Below are positions 8,404 to 42,588 of a stretch of 64,000 nucleotides of DNA, piece after piece. The translations under genes and the position numbers were made by a program. The notes under the pieces were generated by a model that saw only the letters and a program-made list of their open reading frames with translations, was not told the DNA's origin and made no database searches. This stretch comes from Rhypophila decipiens (Eukaryota > Ascomycota > Sordariomycetes > Sordariales > Naviculisporaceae). Location: assembly GCA_033297075.1 (NCBI GenBank), contig MU858076.1:125720-189719 (forward strand), read 5' to 3'. The stretch's first letter is position 1. The number at the start of each line of letters is the position of its first letter.

Positions 8404-9347
8404 TCTGTTCTTAGGTCGCTCTTCGGGATTATGTTTGGTTGTATGTGTGCCTTGCTAAGGAAAACCAGGACGAGGTAGGTCGGCGGCGGATTTCTTCGCG
8501 GATGAGGTCGTGATTGTTGGATGTCTTGCTCCAAGCGGGGAATAGGTGGTCGACGACGGTGAATTCGATTGCAAAAGTGATGGAAAATAATATAAGAGGC
8601 TGAGTTATCCAAGACTTGCGCAAGATAATTGAGACGAGTGAGCTCGATGTCGGTTGCTGCTGATGTTCGTGGCTCCTACCCGCCAAGTCGCTGAAATGCG
8701 ATATCGTTCATGACGTCATTTGCTTTCCTTGAGAAGTTGACAGTTGACGTCGATCCTGCAGGTCCCTGCAGCTGATCCAGAAGTTAGGTCGTGCTGCAGG
8801 CACAACTGACAGCTGCAAGCCCCTGAAAGATACGGGTAACGTACGTGTATATACCTTGGTACCAAACGAATTTCACGGTAAATGTTCAAGTTGGAGCTGG
8901 TTGAACAAACCTAGGCCTGTTTGTGACTTTCTGAACGCATTTTAACTGTAGAGACAACGTAATCACTTAACTAGCTTGTAAAGGGACTGTTTTACCATTT
9001 ATCAAGGCGCTTTGAGGTCCCAAGCAAAGCCCTGGTCACGGTCATGTGCAGAATGTGATACTTAGCACCCCTTGACGCTGGTTGGTGATCAATGCCCAGA
9101 GGCCATCATAGCACCGATGAAAAAAAAGCAATTAAAACTGCCAGTAGCGTATCCACCGTGCAGGAAATGGTGCGAAAACTTAACGCGTCTTGGGCGCGTC
9201 TCATCATCATGGCCATTCGTCTGCGATCGACTGATTACCTCAACGGCTATTCCACACAAAAAGGCATCCGGTAAACTCGGTAGCATTTTGAAGGTGTTCC
9301 AAAGTAACTCTATCACATGCGCCGGACGGCTTGTAAACTTCGACGCC
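8404..9347. other. Intergenic promoter region
   Basis: Lies between the divergent membrane-protein and 2OG-oxygenase-type genes. Carries a perfect TGACGTCA and a second TGACGTC (separate entry). A minus-strand frame at 8429-8686 upstream of the membrane gene has one hydrophobic stretch but no other support. From about 9085 the sequence matches the upstream flank of the inverted paralogue (near 16400-16530), so the duplication includes part of the promoter. Confidence 0.5.
8711..8760. promoter_or_regulatory. CRE-like bZIP sites
   Basis: TGACGTCA at 8711-8718 is the full CRE palindrome bound by ATF/CREB-type bZIP factors. A half-overlapping TGACGTC follows near 8753. They lie between divergent gene starts at 8403 and 9348, so either could be the target. 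The site is short and can occur by chance. Confidence 0.4.
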
Positions 9348-12300
9348 ATGGAAACCGCGCCGACACACGACCTCCCCGACGCAGTAGCGCCTCGGGCAGC
9401 TCAAATCACCACGCCCGTCGTGAACTCTACCCATCTGTCCCGTCGGCACGACGATAGGGTGTCTGAGGGCACCGTATATGAGGGCGGTGTCACACCCGGT
9501 GATCAGCTGCTGGCAGAGAGCCAAGACAGAGGCAATCCAGTGTCACTCAGCAACATTCTGAATCCATCAACCAATAACCTCTCTAAAAACAAAACCGCTG
9601 ACGACATGCACGCTGCGGAGAGCGAAAGCGTCTGTAGTGACCTGAGCACCGATGCATATCGAAAAAATCTCACCAAAGACGTCGACGATGCTCTCAACTT
9701 GATCCGATCAACCGGGTCCTTTGCAGCATTCACCCCTGTCTGGTTTGGAGAGCAGCCGAGAATCGCCGTTGACGGTGTCGGTGATATCAGCATCCCTCTC
9801 CAGGAGGACCAAGCCCGGCAGCTTATCAATAAGGCCCGTCAGGCGCCTTTCGGGAAAGGCAGTGATACCGTTGTGGATACTTCGATTCGCAATACGTGGG
9901 AACTCGATGCCTCCCAAGTTCAGTTTTCTGATCCAGGGGACATGGCTCGAAAGATTCAAGGTCTTTGCAAAGTCGTCGCTGACCAGATGGGCATCACTTC
10001 ACCTGTGTCAGCAGAGTTTTACAAGACGCTCATCTACGAGAAAGGCGCCATGTTCAAGGCCCACACGGATACTGAGAAGATCCCAGGCATGTTCGGCACA
10101 ATGATACTTTGCCTGCCTTCACCTCATGAGGGCGGAGATCTGGTCGTCAAGCACCGCGGAGCGCGCAAGGTATTCAAGACATCCGAAGGCAAAAGCGATC
10201 TAAGTCCATGGCCTGCTGGTACTCGGACGTGTCGCATGAAGTTCTGCCCGTCACGTCTGGCTATCGATGGGTACTCACTTACAATCTTGCCATCCCGCCC
10301 AGTTTCGAGCGCCCCACCGCTGATCTGAGCAGAGCGATAACCAGAGACCTCCGGCACACTCTTCGCAGATGGATTCAGAAGGCAGCAAGTCCGGATTTCA
10401 ACCCGCAAACTGATCACGGGCGTCTCTGGTATGAACTGGAACATGAATACACGGAGGCGAATCTCTCTCTGCGGGCTCTCAAGGGAACAGATCTGCTTCG
10501 TGTACAGTGCCTCAAGGAGTTGGCCACCGAACTGGGCCTCGAGGTCTTCCTCGCAATGATCAAGAAAGAGGAGGAAGGAATAGTCGAATCAGATTCTTGG
10601 TGGATGCGAGACAATCACAAGGCAAGATGGTTCGATAGCGATAGGGATGAGGAGTCAATGCATGATCTTGACGAGGTTTTGTCTACTACTATTTCCATTC
10701 CCAAGCTCGTCAAGTTGGACGGAACCCGCCTCGGAACATCGTACCCACAGATGGCGGTAGAAGGTTTAGAGAAGACTGGGTCAAGGATGGCGAGCCTTTG
10801 GACAACTTCACAAGTCATGGAGAGGAAGGATATTCTGGCTATATGGGAAACTCGGTAAGCTCATGTTCGTCACCGGTCGCTTGGGTGTGTGCAAATTGAC
10901 TGATATCGTTGCAAACAGGCCCCTACGGCAACTCACTGGCACTGCCAGACAGTCGCCTTGATATTTCCAAACCAGAAGTTGGCGGACGAGTTTCTCGTCA
11001 GAAACACCTCAAAGTCAGATGCACAATCCTTACCGCCACGTTACCTGCAAAAGTGCAAGGACCCAAGGACCAGAGAGCAGTCGATACGGACGCTCGAGAA
11101 AATGGCTAAAAGCGCATGGGAGCCCACGAAGAAGAAGTCTCAGTTCGACTACAGCCTTGTGCCGGAACGCCTAGACCGCCGCTCTCCCACCGAGGTCTTG
11201 AGGCTTGCTATTGATCTTCACAACTACGGTTTCTTCAACAATGTGGTCGGGTGGCTGGGCGCAAATGTGAGCATGCTTGTGTACAGTCATGTCAAAGATA
11301 AGGTTTTGGATCCCGGTAACTACGCCGGTTTTCGGGAGATAAAAGCCGCGCTTCAGCACAACATCTTGCTCCACTCGGTAGGGGATCGTTATGGCTTCCT
11401 GAAGTCGCTAGCTGTTGAAAGCCACAATCCGTGTTTTGGTGATGTCCAGCGGCTTTCATTTGATGTCGTAGCTCGGTCACTTGATGAGTGTCAGACATCT
11501 CTACCGGGCCCTGGGGAGTGGGACGGCCTTGCTGCTGTAGGGCTGGTTCTGGAATATCATAATGAATCCGTCTTCCAAGATCGGTAAGTTCACTTTCCCT
11601 TACCAGTACTCTTTCCGCGACGTGCTCAGTGTCTGAACTTCCCTGCTGACTAGCCATCACCCCCCCTAACGCAGGTTCGTTCCTATCCTCAGATCCAGAA
11701 TTAGCCTCACTTCTTTCATTTTCGGGGCCCTGGAGGGATATCTCGAGAATGCAGAGGACAATGAGGCTCCACGGGCCCTCTCACCAACATCATTGCAGGT
11801 CGTTGAGGATATCGCCAAGTCGGCAATCGCTGCAATGGATTTGAGTAAGCTCCTCAGCGAAGATACATACAAGACTGCGGCCGCTGGTGGTAGACAAAAG
11901 CTTACAGCTGAATATTATCGCAAGGCTCTTGTCGCCAGGGTTCCACTCCCAGTTGTCATCGCAAGCAGACTGATCACGCCAGCGATGTTGGAAACCTTTG
12001 TCGAGAATTGCCTTAGGTACCGCTGGGACAATGTGCTGCTACAGTTTTGCTTCAAGATTGTCGCGCACGCCGACGACATTCCTGAAGACGAATTCAGCCC
12101 AGTCTGGGTCCCGTTCCTGGCTTCGTTCATCGAGACATTCCAAACCCGCGGTATCGACCTCTCGTCGCCCAGGTCCCAACAACTAGGCTCTGCCATCTTG
12201 GACAGCTACCTATCCAAATACCTTGGCAAAGAGCCCACCCAAGACTTGGACTATAGCCGTCCACGGCTACGGACTAGTTGCGTGTGTGCCGATTGCACAC

Positions 12301-12743
12301 AGCTCAACCACTTTCTGGTGTCGCCGACACGTAACACCCTGCGGATTCCAGCGCCCAAGAAGCGGAGACAGCACCTCCACAATATGCTCGACGCCGACGG
12401 CAGAGGTCGCTGTTCACACCAAACAGACAGAAGCACGCGGCCTGAAACTCTGGTCATAGAGAAATACGGTTGGCCGACTGATCAGCCAAAGCAAGCCTGG
12501 CGCGATAGAGCCGCGGCTATCCTGAAGGAGATCGGCAAGTTTGATCAGGATGGCCTGCGCAAGATTCTTGGACCCGACACATGTAACTACTTTAAAGACG
12601 CGGCTCATCTCTCTCGCCATCCTGCCCTGGCCAGGATCGCTGATATCAGCTCCCTTACTGCGGCACCAGCTCCGGCAGTAGCAGGCACGAAGCGTACCAT
12701 GCCCTCGGATGCTGAAGCTGGCTGGAACACTCGTCCTTATTGA
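9348..12743 (+). pseudogene. 2OG-Fe(II) oxygenase-domain protein, left copy, two frameshifts
   Basis: Exons 9348-10854, 10919-11583 and 11675-12743 have canonical introns (GTAAGC...AACAG and GTAAGT...CGCAG). Residues near 200-320 carry the oxygenase core: FKAHTDTEK supplies the HxD pair, SHEVLP the distal His, then YRWVLTYNLAI. This resembles the prolyl-4-hydroxylase-type double-stranded beta-helix that uses 2-oxoglutarate and Fe(II). A long helical C-terminal region follows, with a CVCADC cysteine motif near 12286. The reading frame slips near 10204 (between HRGARKVFKTSE and ACWYSDVSHEV) and again near 10762. Each slip needs one added base, and with both corrected the first exon ends exactly in phase with the next. 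So this is either a recently broken gene or a gene with two sequence errors. Start chosen at METAPTH because the paralogue starts METRPSH. Confidence 0.75.
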
Positions 12744-13066: not shown

Positions 13067-16000
13067 TCAAGAAACTCTTCGCCGTGAGTTACTCGAAAAC
13101 AAGTTATGCTCCTCATCGTCCGTCCTAGCACGCCTAACGCCCGCAACCGCCGCTGGATTCGGGACGCCAGCCTTCCTCCCGCCACTGCCCGAACCACTAT
13201 TAGGACCCAAAAGCGAGTTGATCGCCATCGGAGCCAACGGACCACCACCACTAGAAGATGCCGACATTAACGACTGCAGATGCTGGCCCTCCTTACTCTG
13301 CGTTTTGTTCCTCAAATGGGCCATATCTCTCATCTTGGCCAACTGCTCACCGCCATCCAATCCATCACCACCCAGAAGCAGCTTCAGTTTCCCTTGCGAG
13401 AATTTGTCAAGTTCATTCTTTGCAACTTTCGCTCGGCGGGTCCATGCCAGTCGCTCTCGATCGTTCGTCGTCATGGGACCGTTGCTGGCAGGCACTTCTG
13501 CTGCTGCTGGTGGTGGTGCGGGCACCGTTGGGCAAAAATCAGCCGCCTTCCAGACATCCAGCTGGTACGGATTGGGAATCCCGGGCCATGTCTTTTGGAG
13601 ACCGAGGTTTACCCCGTCCGTACGCTCAATCTGGCGTCGGATGTGTTCTAGCCTTGTCGAGGGGAGAGAGTATTTGGTGGATGTCACGGTGGTCGAGGTG
13701 AGGAAGGTTTTCAGCAAGTGGCAGTCTTGGCAGCGGCATTTGACTGGTTGTCTGTATAATTCTTGGCGGTTTGATGTGGTGCGGCTACTGGTGGTGGTGG
13801 TGGTGCCTGTCCTCTCCGGCTTCTTTTGGACGTAGTTGTCCAAGAAGCTGTCGAGGATGGCGCCTGCAATCTGCTGATAGCGAGGTGTGGTTAAGGGGAC
13901 TTTGTTGGCTTCTAAAACTGCGATGAGGGATTGTAAGAAAGGCAGCCAGAGACCGCGATACTCGTACCAGGGCAGCCTTTCGGCCTCGGCGAGGATCTTG
14001 AATGTCAACTGGAGAAGCAGGTCATCCCAGTGGTTCTCGAGGCAGGTAGCGAAGAACTTGACCAGGCTCTGGGGATCAATCACGTATGATAGGTCTCGCG
14101 GGGGGACTGCCGTGTATCGTCGTAGCACATGCAAATAACTGGACTTTTCGACAAAACGGTCCGAAGGCTCTCGTCCCCAGTTATCTTGGTAGGTGATAGT
14201 GCTGCGAAGACGAAAGAGTGAAACGCCTGCAATGAAGGACTTGGCAAGCCGCTTGCAGTGCTGCGTGGCTATGTTTCGGCCGCCGAATTGACCCGTGGAA
14301 GCATGGATCCAGTACTGCTGGACTGCTGCTAAGGCAAATGGCGAACCCTGGCTTGCACGGAGTTCGAGAAGCGGTATGACACTGTCCAGAACGTAGTGAG
14401 TTAGTAGTCCTGACAGCACTGGAGTAGGAAGAGAGGCTTACTGTTGCGAGAAGAAGTCGAAGTTGCAGAATTCCTGAATCATGTTGACTATGGCCACGCC
14501 GTCTTCCTCCACGACCACTGCTGTTTTGGATTTTTCCACGGCGGATTCCAAAACCTCTGAGAAGAAGGATTCTCGTGCGTTGCCGTCGACTGTCAACCCA
14601 CAATCTTGTACGAGGGCGCTGAGGATTAGGCCTTGCTCCGCCAACCGCTGGATAGGGATATATCTCAGCATGCTATTGAGAGTGTTAGTCTTACCAGTAA
14701 TAATTCCTGTCTCCCACATGATCAGTAGTAATAGTGGCCATGTAATTCTTACCATTCTCGAGCCTGATCAAACTTAAGATTGCCCTCAACTACAAGGCTC
14801 TTGAGTGCACAGAAGGTGGACTCGTCTGTTCTTTTGAGCAGCCAGTTGAGGACCTCTTCAAATAGGGTCGGCTGGCACCTCTGGAGAACTTCCAAGACCA
14901 TGGAAACGACCTTGGGGTTTACCGAATTGACTGCCTCCGGGCCTTCCCATGACTTCATAGCGAGGATACGGGTCATCTTGAGCGCCATTTCTCGGGTTTT
15001 GGGATCGGGATCATCAACTTGCTGAACTTAGCGTGCAAGCGCGGGCTCACTCTCAAGGCGTTCGATACCTCCTGAGAAATAGCGATCCACGTGCTGTTTT
15101 GGAACAAGCACTGCCATCTGAACAAAGGAATAGTGGTGTATGGGTTAGTCATATTTCAACGAGATCATGTCTTAATGTACACAGGATGAGACTGTTCTTG
15201 CCACTTACCGTCCGCCGATACCGATGTGTTGCACTGGGGCCATGGTAGCTATGCTCGTAGTCTGTCTCCTCGCAATCTGCCCTGTCGAAAGGGTCCTCGA
15301 AAGGGTCCTCGAGGTTGATAAGATTCTCCCGAATAATGTCAACGTCGATCTCAGGTTCGTAGTTCATTTCCCGACCGGTCAAATCAACGAGCTTGTTGAT
15401 GTTCAACTCCATTTCCAAGACTTCTTCCATGACATGCGCAGTTTCGTCTTCGTTCTCCGCATCCTCGTCCTCGTCCTCGTCCTCGTCGTCTTCCTCATCA
15501 CCCATAGAGTTCCAATCTCCATATTGGTCATAGTACCCCTCTCTGTGGTCATCGTCAGAACTAGCTACTATGCCTGATTCCACCTTCTCCGCACGAAAGA
15601 TGTAGACGTTGAAACCAAGTTCATCAGCAAGTTTGTCCAAGCACTCCATTATAGCCAGATCCGAGCCCTTGAGGGCCTTGAGACCGTCGGAGAGGCTTTC
15701 TTCGGCAGATATGTCATCCATTAGATAGTAAAGCTCCTCGTTGACATCGACTAGCTCTGGATTCTTGCAGTTAAGAGAACGCTGTTCATCTCTCTTCTTG
15801 ACCTATAGCAGCCATCGCCGGAGTGTATGGCGCAGATTCTTGGTCGCGGATCTGAACAAAGAATCGGACGGTTTCTCAACCCCGGAACTTGGAGGAATGG
15901 CGCCAAGCGCCGTGCGAAGGTCGCTGTGGAGATCCACATGGAACTCTTCGGTGCTGAGGGCGCTGACCATGCTAGCAGTCTCTGCGGCATCCAATTCGTC

Positions 16001-16285
16001 GTCTTGGTCTGTGGAATTCGAGTTGTTGATAAGAGCGTTGTCGACAGTGTTCAGGAGGTTGTTAAGGGCGAGAGCATTCTGGCAATTCTCTGACAACAAC
16101 TGCTCGTTTGGCGAGGCATCGCCCTGATATATCTCTCCATGAGATTCTGTGACCTGATGAGGCTCGGGCACCCCATTAGAGTGTCCGGTTTCAGGATTAT
16201 CGACAGAGGCCATGCCGGGCACCAAAATAGCAGTACTAGAGGGCGCTGCTCCGTCGAGGTTGTTGTGTGATGGCCGAGTTTCCAT
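13067..16285 (-). pseudogene. Paralogue of the 2OG oxygenase gene, right copy, catalytic core deleted
   Basis: Exons 16285-15209, 15117-14753, 14672-14442 and 14381-13067 are joined by canonical introns, and phases close to 996 codons. Start METRPSH, exon order and the cysteine motif (CRCQDC, like CVCADC in the left copy) match the inverted neighbour. The sequence jumps from the N-terminal acidic part (ALGAIPPSSG) straight to LRHTLRRW, which in the left copy follows the oxygenase domain. The HxD/His core is therefore absent. Codon 161 is TAG (15805-15803) and a codon of exon 2 is TAA (15030-15028), both inside otherwise open frames. An acidic Asp/Glu tract (15440-15500) is an expansion not seen in the left copy. 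It is probably a non-functional paralogue, or, if the stops are errors, a non-catalytic family member. Confidence 0.75.
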
Positions 16286-16786
16286 GGCGTCAAAGTTTAA
16301 AAACGGTGGGTCGCATGTGATAGATAAGGAAAATGTGTATCTAATTGTCAGTGTCATGAAAATGCGACGAATTACACGACGTCAGACGTCAGTCATCTAG
16401 TGGCGATGTTGAAAATGAGACGCGTCTTGAACGCGTCTTTTGTTTTCTCACCATTCCCCGCATTGTGGGTACCGACAACTTTAATTGCTTTTCCATCGCC
16501 GCCATCATCCATGATGGCTTCTGGGCATTGATTGTCAACGACAGGGGTGCTATCCGCAGATGACCCTCTCTTCTGGTAAATGACCTGGACGAGCACGAAA
16601 CAGGAACAGTCGATCCAAAAAGTGGTGTTTTCGAGAAGCGATATGCGACATCGAAACGCCAAAAGAAACGATGACGTTTGTAGATATCCAGACCTCTGTT
16701 GTGGAGTGTTGCAAGTCGGGGGACATGCTGACTCTTGGCAAGTCATTACATTAAGCTTTCTACAGCTTACATAATTATCAGATTCT
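16286..16786. other. Duplicated upstream flank of the right paralogue
   Basis: The minus strand here matches the left paralogue's upstream DNA (AATGCCCAGAGGCCATCAT-like, AAAGCAATTAAA, and an ACGCGTCTTG...GCGTCTCAT block). Tandem GACGTCAGACGTCAGTCA at about 16378-16395 gives two TGACGTC half-palindromes on the minus strand, echoing the CRE-like sites upstream of the left copy. Confidence 0.5.
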
Positions 16787-18653: not shown

Positions 18654-19616
18654 AAGTCCAGGCTCAACGGTCACTTGAACCTCAGGACTATGGGCTGGCT
18701 GGCACCAAGCGGCATGAACCGTGTGTCAGTGCTGAAGATCAAACGACATCGTCACGATCACGTCCCGTGCCAAAATAGCTGTCTCATACACATCGAATTC
18801 CGAAAGCCGTTGGCACGACTTCACGATATCATACCCATTTTTAAGAAGCCTAAAAACCCAAAACTCCATGATGGATCCAGTTCCGCATCGCCCTTGCCAG
18901 CAAGACGAGGCTTTAAGCCACCGGAGTTTCTCGATCAGCATCGATCAGCATCGATTGATATCTATTATTTGGATTATTTCGCCGGTTCGTTGCCACCCAA
19001 ATCTTGGACCAAGAACGAATCAGTTCTGCGTCACAAGAGGCGAGCTTTCGCACAAAATGATCAACCGTCGATAGACGGACCGACAGACAGTCCGAGCGGC
19101 CAACTGGCCAAATTGGAAAGAAAGAATGGAGCCAGATTGTTTGGATCTATCGAAAGGTCACAGTGGCTTGGTTTACGAGAACAAGGAGTGGTGAACATGG
19201 AAATCTGGGGCTGGAAACGTATGACATGGTCGAACATGCTGAGGCAGAGAGGGATGCCCCAAGAAGCCGCTTGTAAGACTTTGTCTGAAGAGCTAGTCTT
19301 CGGAGCTGGACAAGGCGAACACAGCATGCTATTTAGAGCATTATTTACCTAGGTAGTCCCATACCGAAATTAGATACTGGTGTCTTAGTCACTCACGATA
19401 GGATCGGATTTGCTAATAGTTCTATGAATGTCGTTGTATTATAACAGCTGCTAGCCTTTTCAGCCAATAAGAGGGAATGTACTTCCTCGCACAGTCTAAC
19501 ATCATAAACGGACCTTATCTTGCTATCGATCCTTAATAGTCGTATCGTCACGACATGGCCTCTATTTGGTTCCAAAGCAATATATTGGCATGATGCATCG
19601 TCGGGAACCGTAAGCT
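18654..19616. other. Uncertain region upstream of the methyltransferase
   Basis: A 266-codon plus-strand frame (18552-19352) overlaps the preceding candidate in another phase. It contains no motif I know, and its composition looks non-coding. A short tandem GATCAGCATC is seen near 18934-18956. Promoter of the O-methyltransferase towards 19600. Confidence 0.35.
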
Positions 19617-21020
19617 ATGCCAGAGCCATCCCGCATCGTACATCTAGCCACCCAGGTCGCGGCCAACACGGCCAAGGTAGACGCCTACTTGACCGCCAAT
19701 TCCCTCCCCTCCCCATCCTTCGCAGCAGACTATGCGACGGCAGCATCAGAGTCCCCGATCCCGAGCTCCGCCCCAGCCGAGATCAAAGCCGCTCACCAGG
19801 CGGTCCTCCGCGACGCCCTCGAGCTCCATCAACTCATGCTTGGCCCACGCGAGCACCTCAACAACATCAGCACCCCGAACTACCTTCTCACCCAGCTAGC
19901 CATTGTCCGCCTCAATCTCGCCAATGCCATCCCGCTCACCGGCAACAGCCAAGTTACATTTTCCCACCTGGCAGCCTCCACATCCCCCTCCATACCGGAG
20001 AAACAGATCCGCAAAATAATCCGCCACGCCGTCGCCCAGCGCGTCTTCACCGAGCCTTACCCCGGCGTGGTATCTCACTCCGCAGCCTCGGCCTTACTCG
20101 CCACCGACCCCGACCTAGCAGGTTGGATCCACTGGCTAGTCTCCGACTGCTGGCCAGCAGCCTACCGCGCGCTCGACGCCATGGCCCGCTGGCCCGACTC
20201 GGAAGAACCCCACCACACCGGCTTCGCACTAGCCCATTACCATGACGGAAACTTCACCAATCCCGACAACAACATCTCGTTGTTCGACTTTCTCCCTCGC
20301 GATCCTGCCCGCGCCTCCCGCTTCGCAGCGGGTATGCGTCTCTATGCCAAGCGGCCGGGCGTTCAAGTCCGATATAGCGTAGAGGGTTGGCTCGACGGAT
20401 GGAAATGGCTTCTCACTTCTTCTTCTTCTTCAGGCAAAGAGCGAGCAAAGGTAGTCGACATAGGCGGATCCCACGGCCAATTCGCGCAGCTCCTCGCCCA
20501 GACATGTCCCAATCTGATTCAACAGATCATCGTCCAAGATATTGATGCTGCCACTATCAGCCGGGCATCATCCTCCCTCCCAGAGAGTTTAGCAAAACAA
20601 GTGACCTACATGACGCACGACTTCTTCAAGCCACAACCGGTCCCTCACGCACGGGTATATTTCTTTCGGTATTGTTTCCACAACTGGAGTGATAAGTACG
20701 CTGTTCAGATGCTCAACGCCCTCAAGGGTGCTATGAAGAAGGGATACTCGTACGTGGTGATTAATGATGTGGTTATTCCTTCCAAGGAGGAACTTGATGA
20801 CTTGGAGAGGGATGGTAGACCTGTTGATCTGGTTGGGTTGCGAACTAGTGACTTGGCCATGGCTTATCTGTTTAATGCGTCTGATCGGGAGAGGAGCGAC
20901 TGGGAACGGCTGTTTGAGTTGGCTGGGCCGGGATTCCGGGTTGAGAGGTGTGATATGGTTGGCGGGGCGGGGATGGGGATTGTGGTTGCTCTGTGGGTTG
21001 GTGAGGAGGGCGATTCTTGA
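19617..21020 (+). CDS. SAM-dependent O-methyltransferase (COMT-like), 467 aa
   Basis: Single exon. The N-terminal half has the alpha-helical dimerisation/winged-helix layout of plant-type and fungal secondary-metabolite O-methyltransferases (LTQLAIVRLNLANAIP..., then a helix-turn-helix near residues 120-150). The Rossmann SAM site VVDIGGSHGQFA begins near residue 280. IIVQDID, near 303, holds the acidic residue that binds the ribose. FRYCFHNWSD, near 350, contains the catalytic-base His typical of the family. Such enzymes move a methyl group from S-adenosylmethionine to a phenolic hydroxyl of polyketides, xanthones or aromatic peptides. It stands alone, with no polyketide synthase nearby. The tyrosine-based peptide locus 8-10 kb downstream is a possible but unproven partner. 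Confidence 0.88.
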   Translation: MPEPSRIVHLATQVAANTAKVDAYLTANSLPSPSFAADYATAASESPIPSSAPAEIKAAHQAVLRDALELHQLMLGPREHLNNISTPNYLLTQLAIVRLNLANAIPLTGNSQVTFSHLAASTSPSIPEKQIRKIIRHAVAQRVFTEPYPGVVSHSAASALLATDPDLAGWIHWLVSDCWPAAYRALDAMARWPDSEEPHHTGFALAHYHDGNFTNPDNNISLFDFLPRDPARASRFAAGMRLYAKRPGVQVRYSVEGWLDGWKWLLTSSSSSGKERAKVVDIGGSHGQFAQLLAQTCPNLIQQIIVQDIDAATISRASSSLPESLAKQVTYMTHDFFKPQPVPHARVYFFRYCFHNWSDKYAVQMLNALKGAMKKGYSYVVINDVVIPSKEELDDLERDGRPVDLVGLRTSDLAMAYLFNASDRERSDWERLFELAGPGFRVERCDMVGGAGMGIVVALWVGEEGDS

Positions 21021-21462
21021 TTTATTTTCTTCTTTTCTTTTTGTTCATTCGCTCGTTTTACCTTTTTCCCTTTTTAGAGTCTGGAGACAGTACTACCATT
21101 TGTGGTGAACGGTCGGGGCTTTCTCACGAGTTGGAAAGTGCGTTATGTGTACTTGTTTACCAGCCCGGGTGGTACTCGACCTATGGATCGGTTACTCAGA
21201 AATATGCGAGCGTGGTTCCGGTCGGTACATGTATGACCTCTTTGCTGATGGGAACTCTCCTCTGCGTCACCCTGCTGCAGGTAAGTGAGTATTCGACTGG
21301 CTCGAGGACCTCCCTGTGTGAGAATAATGATAAAAACCGAGTAACAGAGGTCTCACGGCCCATGTAGTGTCCTCGGGTGACGACCTATTTGTACGCCCCG
21401 GTTGACCAAGAGCTTCCATCTTTGTCATTTGTACCCCTCTGGACCCTGGTGGGAACATAGCC
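21021..21462. other. Intergenic
   Basis: T-rich 3' flank of the methyltransferase gene (21020-21075) and upstream region of the HET gene. No further features seen. Confidence 0.5.
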
Positions 21463-24387
21463 ATGACAACAAGCTTCCCCTCAACCCCCAAAACCTTGAC
21501 CCAATTCACATCTTTCAGTCAAGATTCTTTGATCGTCACTGGCCAGAGCATGGCGAACGCAAGGCAGAAGGCTGATGAGAACGATGGCTGCTCCGTCTGC
21601 GAGAACGGACTACTCGTCCTTGACTCGGGCCGTCGCGCGCCTGGCGAAGGCGAAGCGCCCCAGCGCAGCCAGACTCTATCAGCCCAACTCTTCCACCAAG
21701 ATTGCGAGACATGCAGCGCTGATGTCAACACGGGCAAGAATTTTGACCTCTGCACCTTCTGTCAACACCTGCGCCTTCGACACTTGCTCCGCTGTATGAA
21801 CCCAGACGAGCCGCCAATGTATGAGACTTTCGTGAAGTTCTGCCGGGTCGAGGATATCCCGGAGCGGGTGCCTTTCTGCTTATTCTGCCGCCTGGTCGTG
21901 CGAACAGCACTCCCGTATCGGTGGTTTTTTGGAGTTGCAAGCCCTGCGGACTTGAGGGGTGCGATCGTCACCATCTCGGTTGGACGGGGGTATCTCTGGA
22001 CGAGGGTAGAATATCCTGATTCAAGTTGGGGACATGGAAGAAATATTAACTTTGACGATGAACTGACGCAGACAAAGCAGCCTCAGAAGACGATGGAGGA
22101 AAGTTCTTCAGAGTCAGCTTCGTCTTGGGCCGGTGGTATTCGGACTCCGGAAGCCAAGGCAATGGTTGGAAGCCACGTGAACTGGACATGGAGTACCGCT
22201 GGAAAGAAAAAGTTAAAACAACAGTGTCGCAAGGTACTGGTTGGGAGCCATGTGAACTGGAGTCTTGGGTGGCGGTGGCTGGATGACTGTTTAGAGAACC
22301 ACGGAGCCTTTTGCACCCGCGAGAGAGCTGGCAGTCTCCCGGTTGGCTTTAGGCTCATCGACGTCGACAGGCGGTGTGTTGTGGAAACACAGGCAAATAG
22401 TCGACATGAATTTGTCGCTCTCAGCTACGTTTGGGGCCAGCAGACCGACCCGACCAGGCTTTTTGCCACCAAGTCCAACAGGGAGAGACTGAAGATCGAC
22501 GGCTCCCTTTCAGTACTTGATCTGCCCAAGACGGTCGAAGACGCAATTGAAGCCTGCAGACAACTTGGCGAAGTTTACCTCTGGGTCGATCGTTTTTGCA
22601 TAGTCCAAGACGACCTTGAAGACAAGGCTCGTCAGATTAGCGCCATGGCCACCATTTATTCCCTGGCCAAGTTTGCCCTCATTATCACCGACGGCGACAG
22701 CGACAGCGGAATTGCGGGTATCAGCCGTGAGAGGACGCAGGGGCAGATGTGCGAGCAGATTGCCGGGTTTGACTTCATTAGCGACCCAACTCAGTGGCGG
22801 GAGATCATCGGCGGTGCGTCTGTTTGGTCAACACGCGGGTGGACGTACCAAGAAGCCATCCTCCCTCAAAGGAAGCTCTACCTCAGCGAGTCCCAGGCCT
22901 TCTTCGAGTGCGCCACTGAGGTCGTCCACGAGCGTGGCGAGATCGAACAGGGCATGTACTCGCCTCATGGACTCAACACCTTTCCGTGGAACCCTCGCTA
23001 CGTCACCTTCTACAGTCACCTAAAGAAATACCGTAAAAGGTCGCTCACTAATCGTGCCGATGTTTACAACGCGATCGATGGCATCGCCAGTGCTCTGTAC
23101 GGCTGCTCTCAGGCTTTGCTGTCAGGGCTCCCACGACAGGAATTTGACGAGGCCTTGCTGTGGTGTTTAGATGCACACAATGATGAAAACCCCCAAGGCC
23201 CCGCTTTCAATGGATCGAGCCCGAGCTGGTCGTGGTCGTCGACGGACAGAGAGTTGATCTTGCTGGACGACACAAACCGGATGCCAATCGACTATTGTGA
23301 CACTCTCACTGCATGGAACCGTATCAGCCATGACGGAAAATATGTCGAGAGCGTGAGAACAATGCCCGCAGGGAAGCCGCTTAGCCACTTCCAAGAGAAC
23401 CAGGACAGTTGTAGCTGCTGCCGCGATTGGTGGTTCAACGCCAAAAGAGACGCCGAGAGACTCCTCTTCTCCGTCCTGGCGTGGAGTCAAGGGTGTATCA
23501 ATCGTCCATGCCCATTCGCCCAGCCCCACGAGACTACTTGGGCCGCGATGCGAGCCGAAATCCGCGCTCGATGGTCCTGCCGCCATCGATATTGGCTAGA
23601 AGCACTACAAGACGTCACCATATCTTCCCCGTCCCCGTCAATGCCAAGCGCAAGCACTGTATTTGCGTCCGTCCAATCCGCCTCCTTCCGGCTGCAAGGA
23701 TCCGTCCAACGAGTTGAACCGTCGCAACGCCCCTTCAACGATCTCCGTATTGCCCACCCCGACGGCCAGCTGGCCGGGCTTTTGGTGGTTGGTGATCCCG
23801 GCTTGGGTCTTGGTCCAGAAATCATCGCTAAAAGCAAGTTCGAGTTCATTGCACTGTCCATCGGCACCTCGAGCAGCATTGTTCTTCCGGATGGGCAGAT
23901 TAAACTTATTTTCAAGTGGGATATGGGTTCGGATGAAGAGATAGAAGAGGACGAAAAGCCAGATGCAGAATTATGTAGAGATTATCGCACCCGGCATGAG
24001 CCTGAACCTGCGCCCGAGGTTTCGACCGGATCAAAGCTTTCAGCCTTACATTGTGAGGACGAGCCGGGCGTTGCCGCTTCGCAGCCATTGGACCAGGACA
24101 CACAGGCCCAGCCGGAGTCCGAGCCTGATTCGTCAAATACCCCGGAATGTCAATGGGATCCGGACAAATACCGCAGATGCCACCCCACGAGCCTCTCTGT
24201 TGAAGAACTCCAAAAGCTCACGTTCCGCGACGGCGCGGGCAAGCTCCTGTGCCCCCTCCCAGTGGTGAATGTCATGATGGTAGAGCGAACAGGGGAAAAC
24301 TCGGTGCGCCGGATAAGCGTTGGTTGGATATATCTTACTTCTTGGATTAGAGCTGAGCCCAAGTTCGTCACTGTCTTTCTAGAATAG
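21463..24387 (+). CDS. HET-domain protein, 974 aa
   Basis: One long intronless frame. The HET domain starts at FVALSYVWG (about residue 316), continues through LPKTVEDAIEACRQLG, YLWVDRFCIVQDD (about 370) and an IYSLAKFALIITDGDSDSGIAGI block, and ends near WSTRGWTYQEAILPQRKLYLS (about 454). These are the three conserved HET boxes. HET proteins trigger incompatibility-type cell death in fungi, with a TIR-like fold. The N-terminal 300 residues are Cys-rich (CSVC, CETC, CTFCQHL, CLFC). A GSHVNW hexapeptide occurs twice, 25 residues apart (DNA 22162-22185 and 22237-22260). The tail is acidic and Pro/Ser-rich. Start: MTTSFPST at 21463; MANARQK at about 21550 is an alternative. Confidence 0.9.
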   Translation: MTTSFPSTPKTLTQFTSFSQDSLIVTGQSMANARQKADENDGCSVCENGLLVLDSGRRAPGEGEAPQRSQTLSAQLFHQDCETCSADVNTGKNFDLCTFCQHLRLRHLLRCMNPDEPPMYETFVKFCRVEDIPERVPFCLFCRLVVRTALPYRWFFGVASPADLRGAIVTISVGRGYLWTRVEYPDSSWGHGRNINFDDELTQTKQPQKTMEESSSESASSWAGGIRTPEAKAMVGSHVNWTWSTAGKKKLKQQCRKVLVGSHVNWSLGWRWLDDCLENHGAFCTRERAGSLPVGFRLIDVDRRCVVETQANSRHEFVALSYVWGQQTDPTRLFATKSNRERLKIDGSLSVLDLPKTVEDAIEACRQLGEVYLWVDRFCIVQDDLEDKARQISAMATIYSLAKFALIITDGDSDSGIAGISRERTQGQMCEQIAGFDFISDPTQWREIIGGASVWSTRGWTYQEAILPQRKLYLSESQAFFECATEVVHERGEIEQGMYSPHGLNTFPWNPRYVTFYSHLKKYRKRSLTNRADVYNAIDGIASALYGCSQALLSGLPRQEFDEALLWCLDAHNDENPQGPAFNGSSPSWSWSSTDRELILLDDTNRMPIDYCDTLTAWNRISHDGKYVESVRTMPAGKPLSHFQENQDSCSCCRDWWFNAKRDAERLLFSVLAWSQGCINRPCPFAQPHETTWAAMRAEIRARWSCRHRYWLEALQDVTISSPSPSMPSASTVFASVQSASFRLQGSVQRVEPSQRPFNDLRIAHPDGQLAGLLVVGDPGLGLGPEIIAKSKFEFIALSIGTSSSIVLPDGQIKLIFKWDMGSDEEIEEDEKPDAELCRDYRTRHEPEPAPEVSTGSKLSALHCEDEPGVAASQPLDQDTQAQPESEPDSSNTPECQWDPDKYRRCHPTSLSVEELQKLTFRDGAGKLLCPLPVVNVMMVERTGENSVRRISVGWIYLTSWIRAEPKFVTVFLE

Positions 24388-24921: not shown

Positions 24922-26964
24922 ATGGATCCCCTGAGTGTTACTGCGTCCGTTGTTGGGCTGGTGGCAGCAGCAGCAAAGGCCCACGCGCTACTGGAGACAA
25001 TATCCTCGGTGCGAAATGCGCCAACGACCATCAGGATGCGCAGCGGGAGATTCGTCACACGGAAATCGCGCTTAGATCGTTATATCGGTTCCTCCAGCGG
25101 ACCGACCCCGCAAGCCAGAGGTTGGAGATGATACAAGTGGATGAGCTCCGTGTTGTCTTGGCAGATGCCATGTTGCTGTTTTCCTCGTTCGAGTCGATGT
25201 TAGAGATGTTGGCCCGCCTGGGTCGATTACGTGCGGACATTTCGTGGACAAAGTACAGCAAACAGCTCGATGATCATCTTGGAAAGCTGGAGCGATATAA
25301 GTCGTCGTTGAGTTTCATGTTGAGCATTCTGCAATGGTATGGTGTCGTCCCCGCAAGCATAAAGCAGCGAGCTGATTCTACCACAGTGATTCTGACTCCG
25401 AGGCGCGTGTGAACCAAGCAAAGCTGCAAGATCTTGTGGAGAAGGTTCTGGCCGAAAACACACAGCTTAGGCAGAAACTGCAGACTTCGGAAGACGCGTT
25501 TGACGCCCGGGGCGTCGCAACAAGGCGCCTTGACGATGACGCTGCAACAGCTCGGCTCGACCACGACAACGCAACCATTAAGGGCCCTGGGATTGCTCGC
25601 AGCGCGACGGTGCAGAGTGCCGTTAACGGCGTTCGGAACAGCATTATGAGGTTCGCATTCGAGAATATCCTGGAGGGATCACGAGTCTACCAACGCACGG
25701 CACACATTCACGAGTGCGATCAGTCCATTGCCAGCAGCGCCATTGGGTCCATCTTCACCGGGTACAGCCTTGCTGAGATATCCGTCTGTCAGTAATCGCC
25801 ATGCCTTTCTGCGCAATCGACGTGTTAAATGGCCGGCATTATACTATCCACGGGGAACGCGAACTCGAGGCCCTAATTGGGGCCGAGTCGGAGGTCGTGA
25901 ACTCAGGCAGGACTGGGTCAAGCCAGGCAAATACGGTGACCAACAGCACTGCCCTGATAGCTGGAAATAGGCACCAGGGCCGAGATGAGGGCCTCCATGA
26001 TGAGATGGCGGATGCCTTCGAGACTCTCCGGGTCATGGAGGAGACCGCAAAATCAGAGCCATCATCACAGCCTATACTATCATCCAACCAGGCCACAGCG
26101 GAAGAACTTGATGGAGATAGCTGCCAATCCGGATATGCACCGTGGGAGACCGCAGTTTCACCACCAAATACGTTGGATAATACCAGTGTCGAAACCAGTT
26201 CCACCAGGCCGGCCATAGACCGCTACCATAGTCAGCCAACCTCCCTTGATGCCTTAGAGAGCGCCCTTCGCGGAGGCTCTACAAACGACTCGAACATCCG
26301 CTCTAACCCCCTCGATGACCATGACGACGAATATGACGGTGTGTACCCGTGCAAAGGCTGCGGTGAGGTACTAGTATGAGACACAGAATATGATACCATA
26401 AACAAATAGTCACGCTGACACCTGGGTAGATTCTCGAGCAAGTCAAAGCCTTCGAGCTTGGTATGGCTACGCCCTTCAGCACGCTGCGTCAAGTTCTCAG
26501 CTGACGATATCACAGCCGGATTCCGATGGCACCTTCATGTTGACTGTTTTCGATGTAACCGTTGCAACGTCCTACACGATTCAAGATCTGATTTGTTACT
26601 CGAAGGAAACGGGTGTTTGATTTGCAAGAATTGTAACTACGACTGCACTGCGTGCGGCAACAAGATCGAAGACCTGGCCATCCTAGTAAAGGGCGATCAA
26701 GCATTCTGCGCCAACTGCTTCCGTTGCACGACCTGCAAAAAAGAGATAGAGGACTTGAGATATGCATGCACTAGTATTGGCATCTTCTGCATGACTTGCC
26801 ACGAATTTTTCATGGCAAGGAAGAGGACAAAAGCCCAGCGAGCTTTTGAACGTGCACGCGCCGGGCATTCCTCGATGGCAGACACGGCGGGGGGAGCTGG
26901 GGACAGCCGAGAAAGCGTGCAAGGGCCAGAGATCGACGCGCAAATGAAGACTGAGGTTGTATAG
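24922..26964 (+). pseudogene. STAND-type N-terminal domain fused to LIM region, two frameshifts
   Basis: Exons 24922-25336, 25387-26367, 26430-26460 and 26516-26964, with clear GT-AG introns. The start MDPLSVTASVVGLVAAAA and the following helices are the Helo-like N-terminal domain found on fungal STAND/NLR and related proteins. A coiled coil (VEKVLAENTQLRQKL) follows, then FENILEGSRVYQRT and GYSLAEISV, then IAMPFCAIDV. The last two exons encode LIM-type zinc fingers: CKGCGEILE...HVDCFRCNRC...CLICKNC, then CTACGNKIEDLAIL...CFRCTTC...CMTCHE. These closely resemble the LIM pair at the N-terminus of fungal Rho-GAP proteins, but no GAP domain follows. One-base losses near 25035 and 25786 shift the frame. 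With both restored all exon phases close at 626 codons, so decay is recent or the losses are sequence errors. Confidence 0.72.
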
Positions 26965-27385: not shown

Positions 27386-28508
27386 TCAAGTAAAACCACT
27401 CTTCTGGAAATCACCCGGGCGGGGTGCTATGGTCACATTTGGGAACTCTTTCGAGTTCTCTTTCATCCAGGCGTGCAGCTTGGAAAAGTCTCGACAGGTA
27501 TGGGCCTGTTGGAAATCAGGGTCTGTACCGATGCGGCCCGTCTCATTCACCCAGTAGAACGGAATCAGCCCAACATCTGCGGTACACATGAGGCGCTGGC
27601 GGATGTTATCGATGCAATGGTCTATCATGATCATGTAAGTTAGATGAATGGACCTCATGAGGTACGAACAGGGGAACATACCGACGTGCTCGATGACTTG
27701 TTCCTCTGGGTGCGAAAAGGCCAGCTGCTTGCGGGCGCGGTAGTAGTCGCTGTTATACCATGTCGACATGCGAATGAGGTTCTTGAGGTCAGATGGTGGT
27801 TAGCATCTTGTGTGTTGCAATGACCAAAGAACTTGAGGCAAATACCAGGCAATGAATCTGGTGGAACACTTCCACGTGAACAGGATATCCTTCGAGGCCG
27901 TCCTGGTCGCCCTTCCCGTCAAAGTGCATGTGGTCCGAGGTGATACCGGCTTCTTCTGCCTCGTCGAGTGGAATCCATATGAAGCCAACTACGTGTAAAG
28001 GTTTTGGTCAGTCCCCAAGGTCACGATGCTGATTTAAATGGTGATGATGGACCTGGAAAGAACAAGAAGGCGGAAACTCACAAGCTGCACCACCTTCATT
28101 TTCCCATATCGCGTCTGTTTCGGGGCCTGGCCGACCCCGCCACGGATTCCCATAGTTGTGAAAGGCTGACTCGAACATCCATGGATGCGTTTGAGTCAGG
28201 TCTAACTCCTTGAAGACCTTGGCTACCTTTGGTGGTTCGCCGACTCTGCTGATGTAGCCTTGGTCTTGCTCTGGCTTTCTTATAGCTTTTGCGATGTTCC
28301 ACGTCAGAAAATTTGTCAGGAGCAGGACGGCGACGATGGAGATGGTTGCCAAGCCTGGGCGACGTGGTTGCAAAGCGGCAGAGAGCTTTTGCCTGAGTGA
28401 GAGATGACTTGAACGCTTCTGTATGCCGTAAAGGAGTCCAGTCTTGTCGGCATCTTCCTCGATGTCGGATAGAGTGGCGTCTGAATCTCGGAATGATGTG
28501 TCGGCCAT
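27386..28508 (-). CDS. UstYa-type (DUF3328) oxidase, 301 aa
   Basis: Four exons: 28508-28082, 27988-27846, 27781-27682 and 27621-27386. All introns are GT-AG with CTAAC-type branch sites, and the phases close to 302 codons. Residues 50-75 (ATISIVAVLLLTNFLTWNIA) form the single N-terminal membrane helix. The family signature is complete: FHQIHCL (HxxHC), then DHCIDNIRQRLMCTAD. The WYNSDYYRAR segment between them is also typical. UstYa-family proteins are membrane-anchored, copper-dependent oxidases. They crosslink or cyclise Tyr-containing core peptides of fungal RiPPs (ustiloxin, phomopsin and asperipin types) and act in other mycotoxin pathways. The gene diverges from the repeat-peptide precursor gene, with 1.07 kb between the starts, so co-regulation from a shared promoter is likely. 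Confidence 0.9.
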
Positions 28509-29578
28509 GTTTTTGGTTGACTGAATGAGACAAGATACAACTGTGTGGTCTTTGAAGAACTGGTGAGAGAGTGATGAATGAAGAGAACTCGGTGTGCTGC
28601 AGAGTATCAGCTCCTCTCTTGGTTACACTTGTCAGGTTGGTAATCAGCCTTTGAGTAATTATTTTCCAGCTGTTCAGTAAAGTAGGTAGCCGCCGGAGCT
28701 GTGCTGGCATAATAGACCATGAAGAGAGATGAGTACACCCAGGAAGGAGGCGGAAAGATCGTCTATCTAGCACTCGAGTAACGTTCTATGACCGGCGCTG
28801 GTATCGAGCAGCGGCCGACTTGGCGATCCTACTGCAACACTATAAGCACCTCTCCTCATGGGATTGCATGTGGCTGCTTGGATACGGGAATAAACACTCT
28901 CTTGAACCCGCCTGAATGCGTGAATTCCCACCCCCTCCTTCCTGATACCTTCCTGATATTCACTAGGACTTCAGAGCTCTTGGCTTTTCCATTTGTCACC
29001 TAGTAGACCTAGAATCAAGCGCTCCATGGAGCGGAATCTATTGATATCATGATCCCAACACCCAGGACGGCTGAGCGGCTATCAAAAGCCTCACAGTTAC
29101 TGCCAGGTGCAAGTATATGGTATTTCACCTGCCGGATTGAGAAGAAAATGCTGCTTGTTTGATCCTTAAACTACGTAAATGACCCACCACAGAGAGGGGA
29201 AATCGGAAACGTGTGGGGTGATTGCGAGGTCATGAAGTCACGAAGGATTTGAGCTGCGTGGGGAGCAGGGCTTCTCCGCCTTGTGTTCGATGCTACTCAA
29301 CGGGGCTCCTGCTTCTTGTGGATTGAAGTCCTGTATGATATGAGAAAGCCAAGAGATTGCATTTTCTCAACCTGTCGATAGAGGATTGAAAGAAGGGGGA
29401 AGGCGATCGAGGACCTGGCAGGATGGAAGATCAACTGCGAGGTATGTAACTTCGATGGCGAAGAGAGGTATAAAGGCTTGCCTCATGCCATCCCAGATTC
29501 AATCATCTGAATTACACTCTTCTCATCTGCAACCAGCCTCATCAAAGCCTCCTTACGATCACTCATCAGCCACCAGCC
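28509..29578. promoter_or_regulatory. Divergent promoter between UstYa-type gene and peptide precursor
   Basis: 1.07 kb without a convincing gene, flanked by divergent start codons. A TATAAA at 29469-29474 lies about 105 bases before the precursor start. Short frames inside (28788-29003, 29386 onward) lack support. I could not identify a cluster-regulator site with confidence. Confidence 0.55.
29469..29474 (+). promoter_or_regulatory. TATA box of the peptide precursor gene
   Basis: TATAAA about 105 bases upstream of the ATG at 29579, a usual distance for filamentous fungi with short leaders. The leader then contains CT/CA-rich sequence (TCATCTGCAACCAGCC). Confidence 0.5.
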
Positions 29579-30165
29579 ATGAAGTCCAGCGTTTTCGTTC
29601 TGCTCGCCGGTCTTGCTACGGCAGCTCTGGCTGGTATGACGTCTCTAGAACAGTACCAATATGGTCAAAGTTCAGCATTCAAAGACTAACACATCTTGTC
29701 GCAGCCCCAGCTCCCGTCAAGCACATAATCAGGGAAGCCGAAGCAGAACCCCAGGCTTATCGCAACATCCAACTTCGCAGCCGTGAAGCCGCCCCGGAGG
29801 CCGAGGCTCAAGCTTATCGTAACATTCAGCTCCGCAGTCGTGCAGCTGAAGCCGAGCCCCAGACCTATCGCAACATTCAGCTCCGCAGTCGAGAGGCTGC
29901 TCCGGAAGCAGAGCCGCAGGCGTATCGCAACATTCAGCTCCGTAGCCGGGAGGCGGCCCCTGAGGCCGAACCGCAGGCTTACCGTAACATCCAGCTGCGT
30001 AGCCGAGCCGCGGAGGCCGAACCTCAGGCCTACCGCAACATTCAGTTGCGCAGTCGTGCTGCTGAAGCGGAGCCCCAGGCGTACAGAAACATCCAGCTTC
30101 GCAGCCGAGAGGCAGCTCCTGAGGCCGAACCTCAGGCCTACAGCAACATTCAGCTTCGCAGCTAG
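29579..30165 (+). CDS. Secreted repeat-peptide precursor, putative kexin-processed RiPP, 171 aa
   Basis: Exons 29579-29633 and 29705-30165. The intron starts GTATGA, has branch GACTAACAC and ends CGCAG. Residues 1-18 (MKSSVFVLLAGLATAALA) are a signal peptide, probably cut before APAPVKH. The rest is eight tandem units with the near-invariant octapeptide YRNIQLRS; the last unit reads YSNIQLRS. Each is followed by Arg and a spacer of whole dipeptides ending in Ala or Pro: EA-AP-EA-EP-QA (long) or AA-EA-EP-QA (short), with one EP-QT exception. Spacer order is long, short, long, long, short, short, long. This is what a kexin cut after Arg plus Ste13-type dipeptidyl trimming would mature into eight peptides. 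The divergent UstYa-type oxidase next door and the Tyr at the core N-terminus point to a cyclised dikaritin-like peptide. Weak point: most cut sites are S-R rather than dibasic K-R. Alternative: a pheromone-like or other secreted signalling peptide. Confidence 0.85.
29745..30163 (+). repeat. Eight tandem coding repeats (51-63 bp units)
   Basis: Units of 17 or 19 codons. DNA of the core octapeptide varies at synonymous sites (for example CGC/CGT Arg, CTC/CTT/TTG/CTG Leu) while the peptide stays fixed. This argues for selection on the peptide rather than recent slippage alone. Confidence 0.85.
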
Positions 30166-41145: not shown

Positions 41146-42588
41146 TCACACATACTCAGCACACACAACCCCCCCTCCCAGATCCATGACCTCTCCGATC
41201 GTGGAATTGGGCAAGATTCCATGACTAAAAAGGACATGCCCCAGGGTCGTCACATTCCCGCCCCCATCGCCAAAGAAATCGGTAAGTGCGGTATCAAGCG
41301 GCTCGCCAATGCCATGACCTTGTCCCGGTCCCCCGCCTGACGGCGAGCATGTTTCGTTCCTGAAGGTGAATGTTGTTTTGCCGGGAGGTGGGCCACCAGT
41401 CCCATTCCCGGGAGGCGGTGCAGGCGGGACGACGATGTTCGGCCCCGATATTTCTGTTAATCTGGCTGAGAGGTTCCGCGATTGCCATTCCCACCAGAGC
41501 TTGTCTAGCCACGTGTGATGGAGGAAGAAGAGCGGGTCGCCTGGGGAGAGGAGGGTGTCGGACATCTGCGTACAATGGTTCACGTTGTTAGTCTTGCCAT
41601 AATAAACAATGAAATTGGGTGGAATGAATGTGAACATACAGTCCCACCAACGCCCCAATGGCCGGCAATATGCGGCTTGGCCTCCAAACAATTCCGATGG
41701 GCCTCGAAGGTGGGCGCACTCAGACAAGCATCCAGATTCTCTTGCAAGGCCCCGGAGAACAAACAGTCGCTCATGTTACGCGAGATACAATATCCGCCAT
41801 CCGGAGCTACCGTCAGATTGGCAGTGAGTTGAAGTCTCAGATCGGCGAATGGCCCGTCAGTGATACAACCACCGCCTGGATGACCTGCTAGCGGTGCGCC
41901 GTCTCCACCGAAACCAGTCATAGGATCGAACACGGACGAGTTGCGGAATGTAAATACGTCGTTTACTTCGTTCCAGTATCTACAAGTTGTCTCTTGTCAG
42001 CATCAAGTAGCATCAAGATAACGTGCCCTGAAGGAGGGTTACTAACGGAATATGTCCCCGATAATTACACTCCCTTCTGAGGAGTGTCTCGTGCGCGAGC
42101 AGGAAATACCGGTGAAAGGGCAAGAAAGCGCCAACAAAGTGGATATAAGCCGACTGAACGATGTGTACATAGTGCAGCTCGTCCCAGAGAGTCTTTGCGC
42201 CGGGAACGCCGTGCTTTGCTGGTGTGGTGGTTAGGCAAAGAGTCGATGAGATGTAATCTTTTCGTTGGTCAGGAGTCAAGTCGTCCCTTGGGTTTGAACA
42301 TGTTAGCTAACTTTATGAATGCGAGACGGGAAGAACTCGGACTTGGACAGGGCCGAATGGACAGGACTGAATTGGTGGAGGTCGATTGATCTTGCGGCGA
42401 TTAGAAATTACTCACCATGCCTTGCGCTGTGATTTTCTTGCGCAGTTCTTGATTGGACTTCCGGATTTTCCTCCACATCGTCGCCTTGATAGTTGAGTTT
42501 TTGGACTTGAACTGGCGGCCGAGACTCCGGCGAGTGTGTAAAGAAGGAGGGCCGCCAGGGCTATTCGTAGATTCGCTGTCCCGTGCAT
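41146..42588 (-). CDS. Secreted tyrosinase, 390 aa
   Basis: Four exons: 42588-42416, 42286-42047, 41979-41640 and 41565-41146. Introns are GTGAGT...CCAAG, GTTAGT...TGTAG and GTATGT...CGCAG, and phases close to 391 codons. A signal peptide (LRIALAALLLYTLAGVSAA) leads. The CuA site is in HYVHIVQSAYIHFVGAFLP-FHRYFLLAHE. The CuB site has KPHIAGHWGVGG (HxxxH) and SPGDPLFFLHHTWLDKLWW. All expected copper ligands appear present. Fungal tyrosinases oxidise phenols to quinones. Short secreted forms also act in RiPP pathways, where they hydroxylate Tyr of the core peptide. The first exon must be read in the signal-peptide frame; a longer overlapping frame (42401-42673) is a shadow. Confidence 0.88.

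Follow-up and report, generated by a model that had tools for sequence, protein, structure and literature searches.

A candidate two-gene locus for a modified peptide in Rhypophila decipiens: a pheromone-style repeat precursor beside a UstYa-family gene

In a 64,000-nucleotide stretch of Rhypophila decipiens (GCA_033297075.1, contig MU858076.1, positions 125,720 to 189,719 of the forward strand; hereafter the window) we identified two divergently transcribed genes, of which one encodes a secreted precursor with eight tandem copies of an octapeptide, and the other a protein of the UstYa (DUF3328) family. We consider it reasonably probable that this two-gene locus makes a short, secreted and probably oxidised peptide, with a precursor cut at single arginines in the style of a pheromone, and a predicted product, YRNIQLRS, modified by the neighbouring UstYa enzyme. 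Loci of this kind, with a repeat precursor near a UstYa gene, are already known, and we read the pheromone-style, single-Arg-cut precursor as the new element.

Structure of the precursor gene

The precursor gene (29579-30165, plus strand) contains one 71-base intron and encodes 171 amino acids. By inspection, its N-terminus has typical n, h and c regions and an ALA-AP cleavage site. The tandem repeat in exon 2 was also picked up by Tandem Repeats Finder. The features of the gene pair are as follows.

27386..28508, minus strand: UstYa/DUF3328 (PF11807) gene, 301 aa; exons 28508-28082, 27988-27846, 27781-27682 and 27621-27386
28509..29578: divergent upstream region common to both genes, 1,070 bases between the start codons
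29579..29633, plus strand: precursor exon 1, ATG at 29579, encoding the signal peptide MKSSVFVLLAGLATAALA (by inspection)
29634..29704, plus strand: precursor intron, GT-AG; an alternative in-frame acceptor lies 6 nt on, ending at 29710
29705..30165, plus strand: precursor exon 2, short pro-segment APAPVKHIIR, then eight spacer and core units, and the stop
29758..29781, plus strand: core 1, YRNIQLRS
29815..29838, plus strand: core 2, YRNIQLRS
29866..29889, plus strand: core 3, YRNIQLRS
29923..29946, plus strand: core 4, YRNIQLRS
29980..30003, plus strand: core 5, YRNIQLRS
30031..30054, plus strand: core 6, YRNIQLRS
30082..30105, plus strand: core 7, YRNIQLRS
30139..30162, plus strand: core 8, YSNIQLRS, with the stop directly after and without the trailing Arg of cores 1 to 7

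The preliminary description of this locus, made from the sequence, had proposed a secreted, multi-copy precursor with a core starting with Tyr, and this structure is confirmed in a complete gene, with the signal peptide judged by inspection. The divergent starts about 1.07 kb apart are likewise as described (29579-28508 = 1,071 bp). All eight of the repeat units reported after the signal peptide are present; their identity extends only to seven of the eight, as core 8 differs. The tally is seven YRNIQLRS and one YSNIQLRS, at a unit spacing of 17 or 19 aa.

Core 8 is the sole copy that needs no downstream cut, and also the sole copy without Arg2, which is replaced by Ser. This loss could mean that Arg2 helps cleavage, or could reflect drift only.

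Predicted cutting and trimming of the precursor

The dibasic pairs KR, RR, KK and RK are absent from all 171 residues of the precursor. Cores 1 to 7 end in LRSR, with a single Arg in the LxxR form, and the leader ends in HIIR. An expanded Kex2 motif, LxxR, has been described, in which Leu is preferred at P4 and P2 is variable (PMC8528282); Leu at P4 fits this motif in all seven LRSR sites, and the P2 Ile of the leader site is among the residues listed there. When repeat precursors were produced in P. pastoris, several peptides were apparently cut after a single Arg (PMC9769878). Judging from these sites, Kex2 cutting at single Arg residues is possible. The earlier proposal of kexin cutting as in the dikaritins is not supported in its original form, as no dibasic pair is found in the precursor, although single-Arg LxxR sites are still compatible with Kex2 (PMC8528282).

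From each Arg to the Tyr that follows, the spacers measure 8, 10, 8, 10, 10, 8, 8 and 10 residues, and 35/36 of their dipeptides, read in register from the Arg, end in A or P. Read one register off, only 4/28 do so, and 0/20,000 within-spacer shuffles reached 35, with a maximum of 30. XA/XP repeats after a Kex2 site are the signature of STE13, a dipeptidyl aminopeptidase, in alpha-pheromone-type precursors (PMC6339444), so the in-register ladder suggests trimming like that of alpha-pheromone precursors. The ladder, together with the ending of core 8 in LRS without Arg, makes YRNIQLRS with a free Tyr the likely mature backbone, which replaces the core YRNIQL(R/S) first put forward. In genome-wide scans (45.7 Mb, 408 contigs), we found two matches to DPPIV_N and one to P_proprotein, a domain found in Kex2.

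Under the favoured explanation, the precursor would enter the endoplasmic reticulum via its signal peptide, and a Kex2-like protease would cut behind the lone Arg that ends each LRSR, and likewise behind HIIR in the leader. A Ste13-type dipeptidyl aminopeptidase would then remove XA/XP pairs stepwise up to Tyr-Arg, as is strongly suggested by the 35/36 register, and a Kex1-type carboxypeptidase would take off the trailing Arg, as is suggested by core 8, which is encoded without it. The predicted outcome is seven copies of YRNIQLRS and a single YSNIQLRS. The calculated [M+H]+ of YRNIQLRS is 1049.585, with 1047.569, 1045.554 and 1065.580 for its -2H, -4H and +O forms; for core 8 the values are 980.516 and 978.500. 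To judge by the pairing of the genes and the chemistry of the family, the membrane-anchored UstYa enzyme would act on the peptide in the lumen of the Golgi, most likely at Tyr1 or by a Tyr1-to-side-chain bond. With Tyr1 and Ile4 both in YRNIQLRS such a bond is possible, by analogy and as a guess only.

Constraint on the repeats

Differences between the core copies (n=8) are almost all synonymous, with proportions of synonymous and nonsynonymous differences (pS and pN) of 0.755 and 0.035, respectively. Across the 16-codon block of eight spacer and eight core codons, compared over eight copies, 15/16 third positions are variable as against 6/32 first and second positions. The coding frame gives the lowest pN/pS (0.08), compared to 0.215 to 16.3 in the other five frames. 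The cores are under purifying selection by both the pS and pN comparison and the frame test. Since the repeats arose from one another by duplication, the values should be taken as a description of constraint, not as tests independent of each other.

The UstYa/DUF3328 neighbour

The complete divergent UstYa-family gene of the preliminary description is borne out as a four-exon gene, whose 301-aa product matches PF11807 (E 1.6e-49; score 169 bits, cut-off 25) and contains both HxxHC motifs, H185QIHC189 and H222VDHC226, with its most hydrophobic segment at approximately residues 51-73. A Rhypophila decipiens protein is 96% identical to it from end to end, one from Naviculisporaceae sp. PSN 640 is 80% identical, and one from Trichoderma sp. 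SZMC 28014 is 43-50% identical; the full-length, ungapped match to the first of these supports the four-exon model. A structure prediction for the R. decipiens UstYa from five sequences was poor (mean predicted local distance difference test score 40.7), with helices at 183-203 and 217-237 that hold both HxxHC motifs, and a sequence search of the PDB returned a single match at E 0.95. In the DUF3328 enzyme CctR, HxxHC(x)nHxxHC forms a binuclear copper site, on the evidence of a model, a metal count and spectroscopy, and replacing the His and Cys residues of the motif by alanine abolished activity (PMC12435403). By analogy, and given its intact HxxHC(x)nHxxHC motif, the neighbour is likely to be a binuclear copper oxidase.

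Alpha-pheromone and repeat precursors elsewhere in the genome

The alpha-pheromone core has the form C...GQ.C. The pattern C-x-x-x-G-Q-x-C gave 307 genome matches (174 + 133), against 155 for a reversed control, and among the matches listed we identified ten tandem copies of CNKPGQPC or CHKPGQPC on another contig (G000:C19:94890-95546). These copies are spaced by 19, 21, 23, 25 or 27 aa, always an odd number, as expected if the spacers change by whole dipeptides. We take this alpha-pheromone-like array, by its core, as the alpha-pheromone gene. We accordingly considered and set aside the precursor studied here as the host alpha-pheromone: it is probably not, given the ten-copy array on another contig and a core without Cys or Gly.

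PF11807 has 67 exon-level matches in the genome, corresponding to approximately 50 loci or 34 clusters, and the sequence no more than 1.1 kb away from any of the approximately 50 UstYa loci makes up about 0.3% of the genome. Eight of the 34 clusters, not chosen at random, were readable for at least 5 kb on each side or to the contig end, and a repeat precursor was present at four of these eight (C53, C71, C59 and the present locus). A scan for repeats (score at least 18, minimum reading-frame length 50 aa, stretches of low complexity excluded) returned 18 rows. Besides the present precursor, we noted the following ones near UstYa genes.

L035:1311-1631 (G000:C53): repeat precursor of AAGVVTWADVSKR type
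L041:7859-8479 (G000:C71): repeat precursor, PLYSLTALVGP with KR
L047:8339-8662 (G000:C59): repeat precursor, GPPPPSW core, KR-cut, EA/EAEA/EAEP/EPEPEA/EAAAEP spacers, with a UstYa match 1.3 kb away
L015:3296-3823 (G000:C208): repeat precursor of DADAIWLWKK type, in a short locus

Dibasic sites are present in all four of these. The C59 precursor shows that dipeptide spacers beside a UstYa gene are not unique to the present locus, whose unusual trait is having no dibasic site at all. Antisense and other-frame copies of the arrays kept were removed by eye, and the rows for L045 (three, frames of one region), L041 6263-7465 with three other frames, L039 and L043 were rejected by eye, having no clear precursor architecture. 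At another UstYa match (G000:C58), we noted a tyrosinase match approximately 4.4 kb away.

Genes surrounding the pair

A Pfam scan of the window covered 60 of its 73 open reading frames (at least 110 aa, overlapped ones removed; short exons were not scanned), and identified the following genes outside the pair.

19614-21017, plus strand: O-methyltransferase (PF00891), approximately 8.6 kb from the precursor
21406-24384, plus strand: HET-domain protein
26419-26961, plus strand: LIM
41149-41996, minus strand: tyrosinase (PF00264) exons, gene region 41.1-42.2 kb, approximately 11.3 kb from the precursor
55713-56240, plus strand: LysM-domain open reading frame
57747-58133, plus strand: fungal rhodopsin-type open reading frame

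Two further regions, 9066-12740 (plus strand) and 13070-16381 (minus strand), appear by eye to be diverged inverted copies of one protein family, with no Pfam match on the scanned reading frames.

Weighing of the explanations

Several results weigh against a pheromone-style precursor with a dedicated UstYa partner. One spacer dipeptide is QT and not XA or XP; the P2 Ser of LRSR is not one of the five alternatives that PMC8528282 gives for this position; and the leader site HIIR has His at P4, which is not aliphatic. Constraint extends to the spacer, with pS 0.815 and pN 0.079 for the eight residues preceding each core, which is somewhat less than in the core, so that the conservation of the core does not stand out sharply. 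The presence of a tyrosinase and an O-methyltransferase at the distances given above leaves "two-gene" not proved. We could not find a homologue of the whole precursor below 1e-3 in the protein set (7,996 best word-sharing candidates scored), nor one of residues 1-46 under E 10 (11 candidates); this set contains the R. decipiens UstYa, and the absence of the precursor may mean merely that it is unannotated there. The host genome contains no paralogue of the precursor either, the best other matches having E 0.25 and 1.05. Searches with core and flanking strings (YRNIQL, RNIQLRS, NIQLRSR, EAEPQAYR and AYRNIQ) found no paper containing them in the collection searched, supplements not being covered, and the available part of PMC7099791 has nothing on a YRNIQLRS core.

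The precursor could alternatively yield an unmodified, linear, pheromone-like signalling peptide, with the UstYa gene acting on something else and the pairing coincidental. We regard this as rather unlikely. STE13-type spacers mark alpha-pheromone-type precursors (PMC6339444), no relative was found that could reveal conservation of the precursor together with UstYa, and annotated mating factors and pheromones are nearly always without DUF3328 neighbours (0/227 and 3/216; PMC7329392), a further point against our preferred explanation, as the pairing may be accidental. On the other hand, only the small fraction of the genome noted above lies as close to a UstYa locus, and the C59 precursor, with EA, EAEA and EAEP spacers, also adjoins a UstYa match. 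Among putative basidiomycete pheromone precursor relatives, 17/76 do have a DUF3328 neighbour, and the core contains Tyr, a residue present in 65.6% of the repeats close to DUF3328 genes versus 38.2% otherwise (PMC7329392).

A classical, kexin-cut dikaritin from a larger cluster of the ustiloxin or phomopsin type, tailored by the tyrosinase and O-methyltransferase, appears improbable to us. Both enzymes are encoded in the window, and in the ustiloxin cluster the tyrosinase gene is found 7 genes from the precursor gene, in the phomopsin cluster 8 (PMC7329392). However, genes of other kinds (HET, LIM) stand in between, and tyrosinase has 60 exon-level matches in the genome, so that one approximately 11 kb away need not belong. 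Peptidase, cytochrome P450 and flavin oxygenase domains were not found in the 60 of 73 window reading frames scanned, short exons not being covered, and the only transporter domain in them belongs to an amino acid permease, located at 61.6 kb. The precursor moreover has no dibasic sites, and its core is unlike the EDYXI motif of the ustiloxin and phomopsin repeats (PMC6339444). Finally, the secreted repeat protein might have a structural role or be associated with the wall, and not be cut into peptides, consistent with the lack of dibasic sites and with constraint on the spacer besides the core. This seems very improbable, as the spacer length shifts only by two residues and in the XA/XP register, which would be needless in a structural repeat, and as core 8 ends exactly at the predicted trimmed end.

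Implications for fungal peptide surveys

We suggest, tentatively and with more doubt than conviction, that there is a hidden class of fungal precursors of ribosomally synthesised and post-translationally modified peptides (RiPPs), defined by LxxR cleavage and stepwise dipeptide trimming, followed by oxidation by a dedicated UstYa copper enzyme. If this is true, members of the class would fail the dibasic filter of PMC7329392 and be missing from its counts; a second survey gives the cleavage site as KR, RR or KK (PMC6339444). As secretion, repeats and a UstYa neighbour are here retained without dibasic sites, fungal RiPP counts may be too low. Such a class would also bridge linear alpha-type signals and the cyclic dikaritins, with a modified and possibly signalling peptide. 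It has been hypothesised that evolution led from linear mating factors to cyclic peptides with modifications along one path (PMC7329392), and the present gene pair would join both halves of it. The exact predicted backbone, YRNIQLRS, could be found or excluded by mass spectrometer.

Comparison with known systems

Kex2-processed repeat proteins (KEPs) lie near DUF3328 genes in 1,758/7,878 cases, with a peak at the adjacent gene (PMC7329392). The present locus resembles these in its secreted precursor, eight tandem 8-aa cores, adjoining UstYa gene and Tyr in the core. The KEP definition of that survey asks for a signal peptide, here judged by inspection, for at least three tandem repeats of at least 8 aa, which the precursor has, and for repeats between KR, KK, RK or RR, in place of which it has dipeptide-ladder spacers. 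The survey, which drew on 69,264 secreted tandem-repeat proteins, would miss this precursor because dibasic sites are required.

The dikaritins (ustiloxin, phomopsin and asperipin-2a) share with the present locus a UstYa protein with two HxxHC motifs, a leader, and repeated Tyr cores, but are cut at dibasic sites, which are lacking here, and have no core in common with it. According to PMC6339444, STE13 is not predicted to process the ustiloxin or phomopsin precursors. An older, five-gene definition of the dikaritins asked for a tyrosinase and a methyltransferase among the clustered genes, as well as a peptidase or transporter; the peptidase may be absent from known clusters, and asperipin-2a likewise has a single ustY-type gene (PMC12048977). 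CctR, which hydroxylates cyclochlorotine (PMC12435403), and the present UstYa have in common the HxxHC(x)nHxxHC motif, a single hydrophobic segment close to the N-terminus and an expected lumenal C-terminal domain.

The precursor also matches Pfam Apidaecin (PF00807; 43.1 bits, cut-off 23.1), with the best stretch at residues 81-93, which comprise an Arg, one spacer and the first two core residues, and not the mature peptide. Insect apidaecin precursors have Arg-bounded EAEP-type spacers between repeated cores; the likeness rests on the spacer, as the present core is not proline-rich. The match is convergence, and we claim no kinship. KEP type P-4, from Rhizophagus and others, also has an Apidaecin match (PMC7329392).

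Like ascomycete alpha-factor-type precursors, processed by Kex2, Ste13 and Kex1, the precursor described here is multi-copy and secreted, with XA/XP in register and spacing that changes in two-residue steps. It differs from them in its single Arg sites in place of KR or RR, in the absence of Cys from its core, where the conserved alpha-pheromone core has two (PMC6339444), and in its UstYa neighbour.

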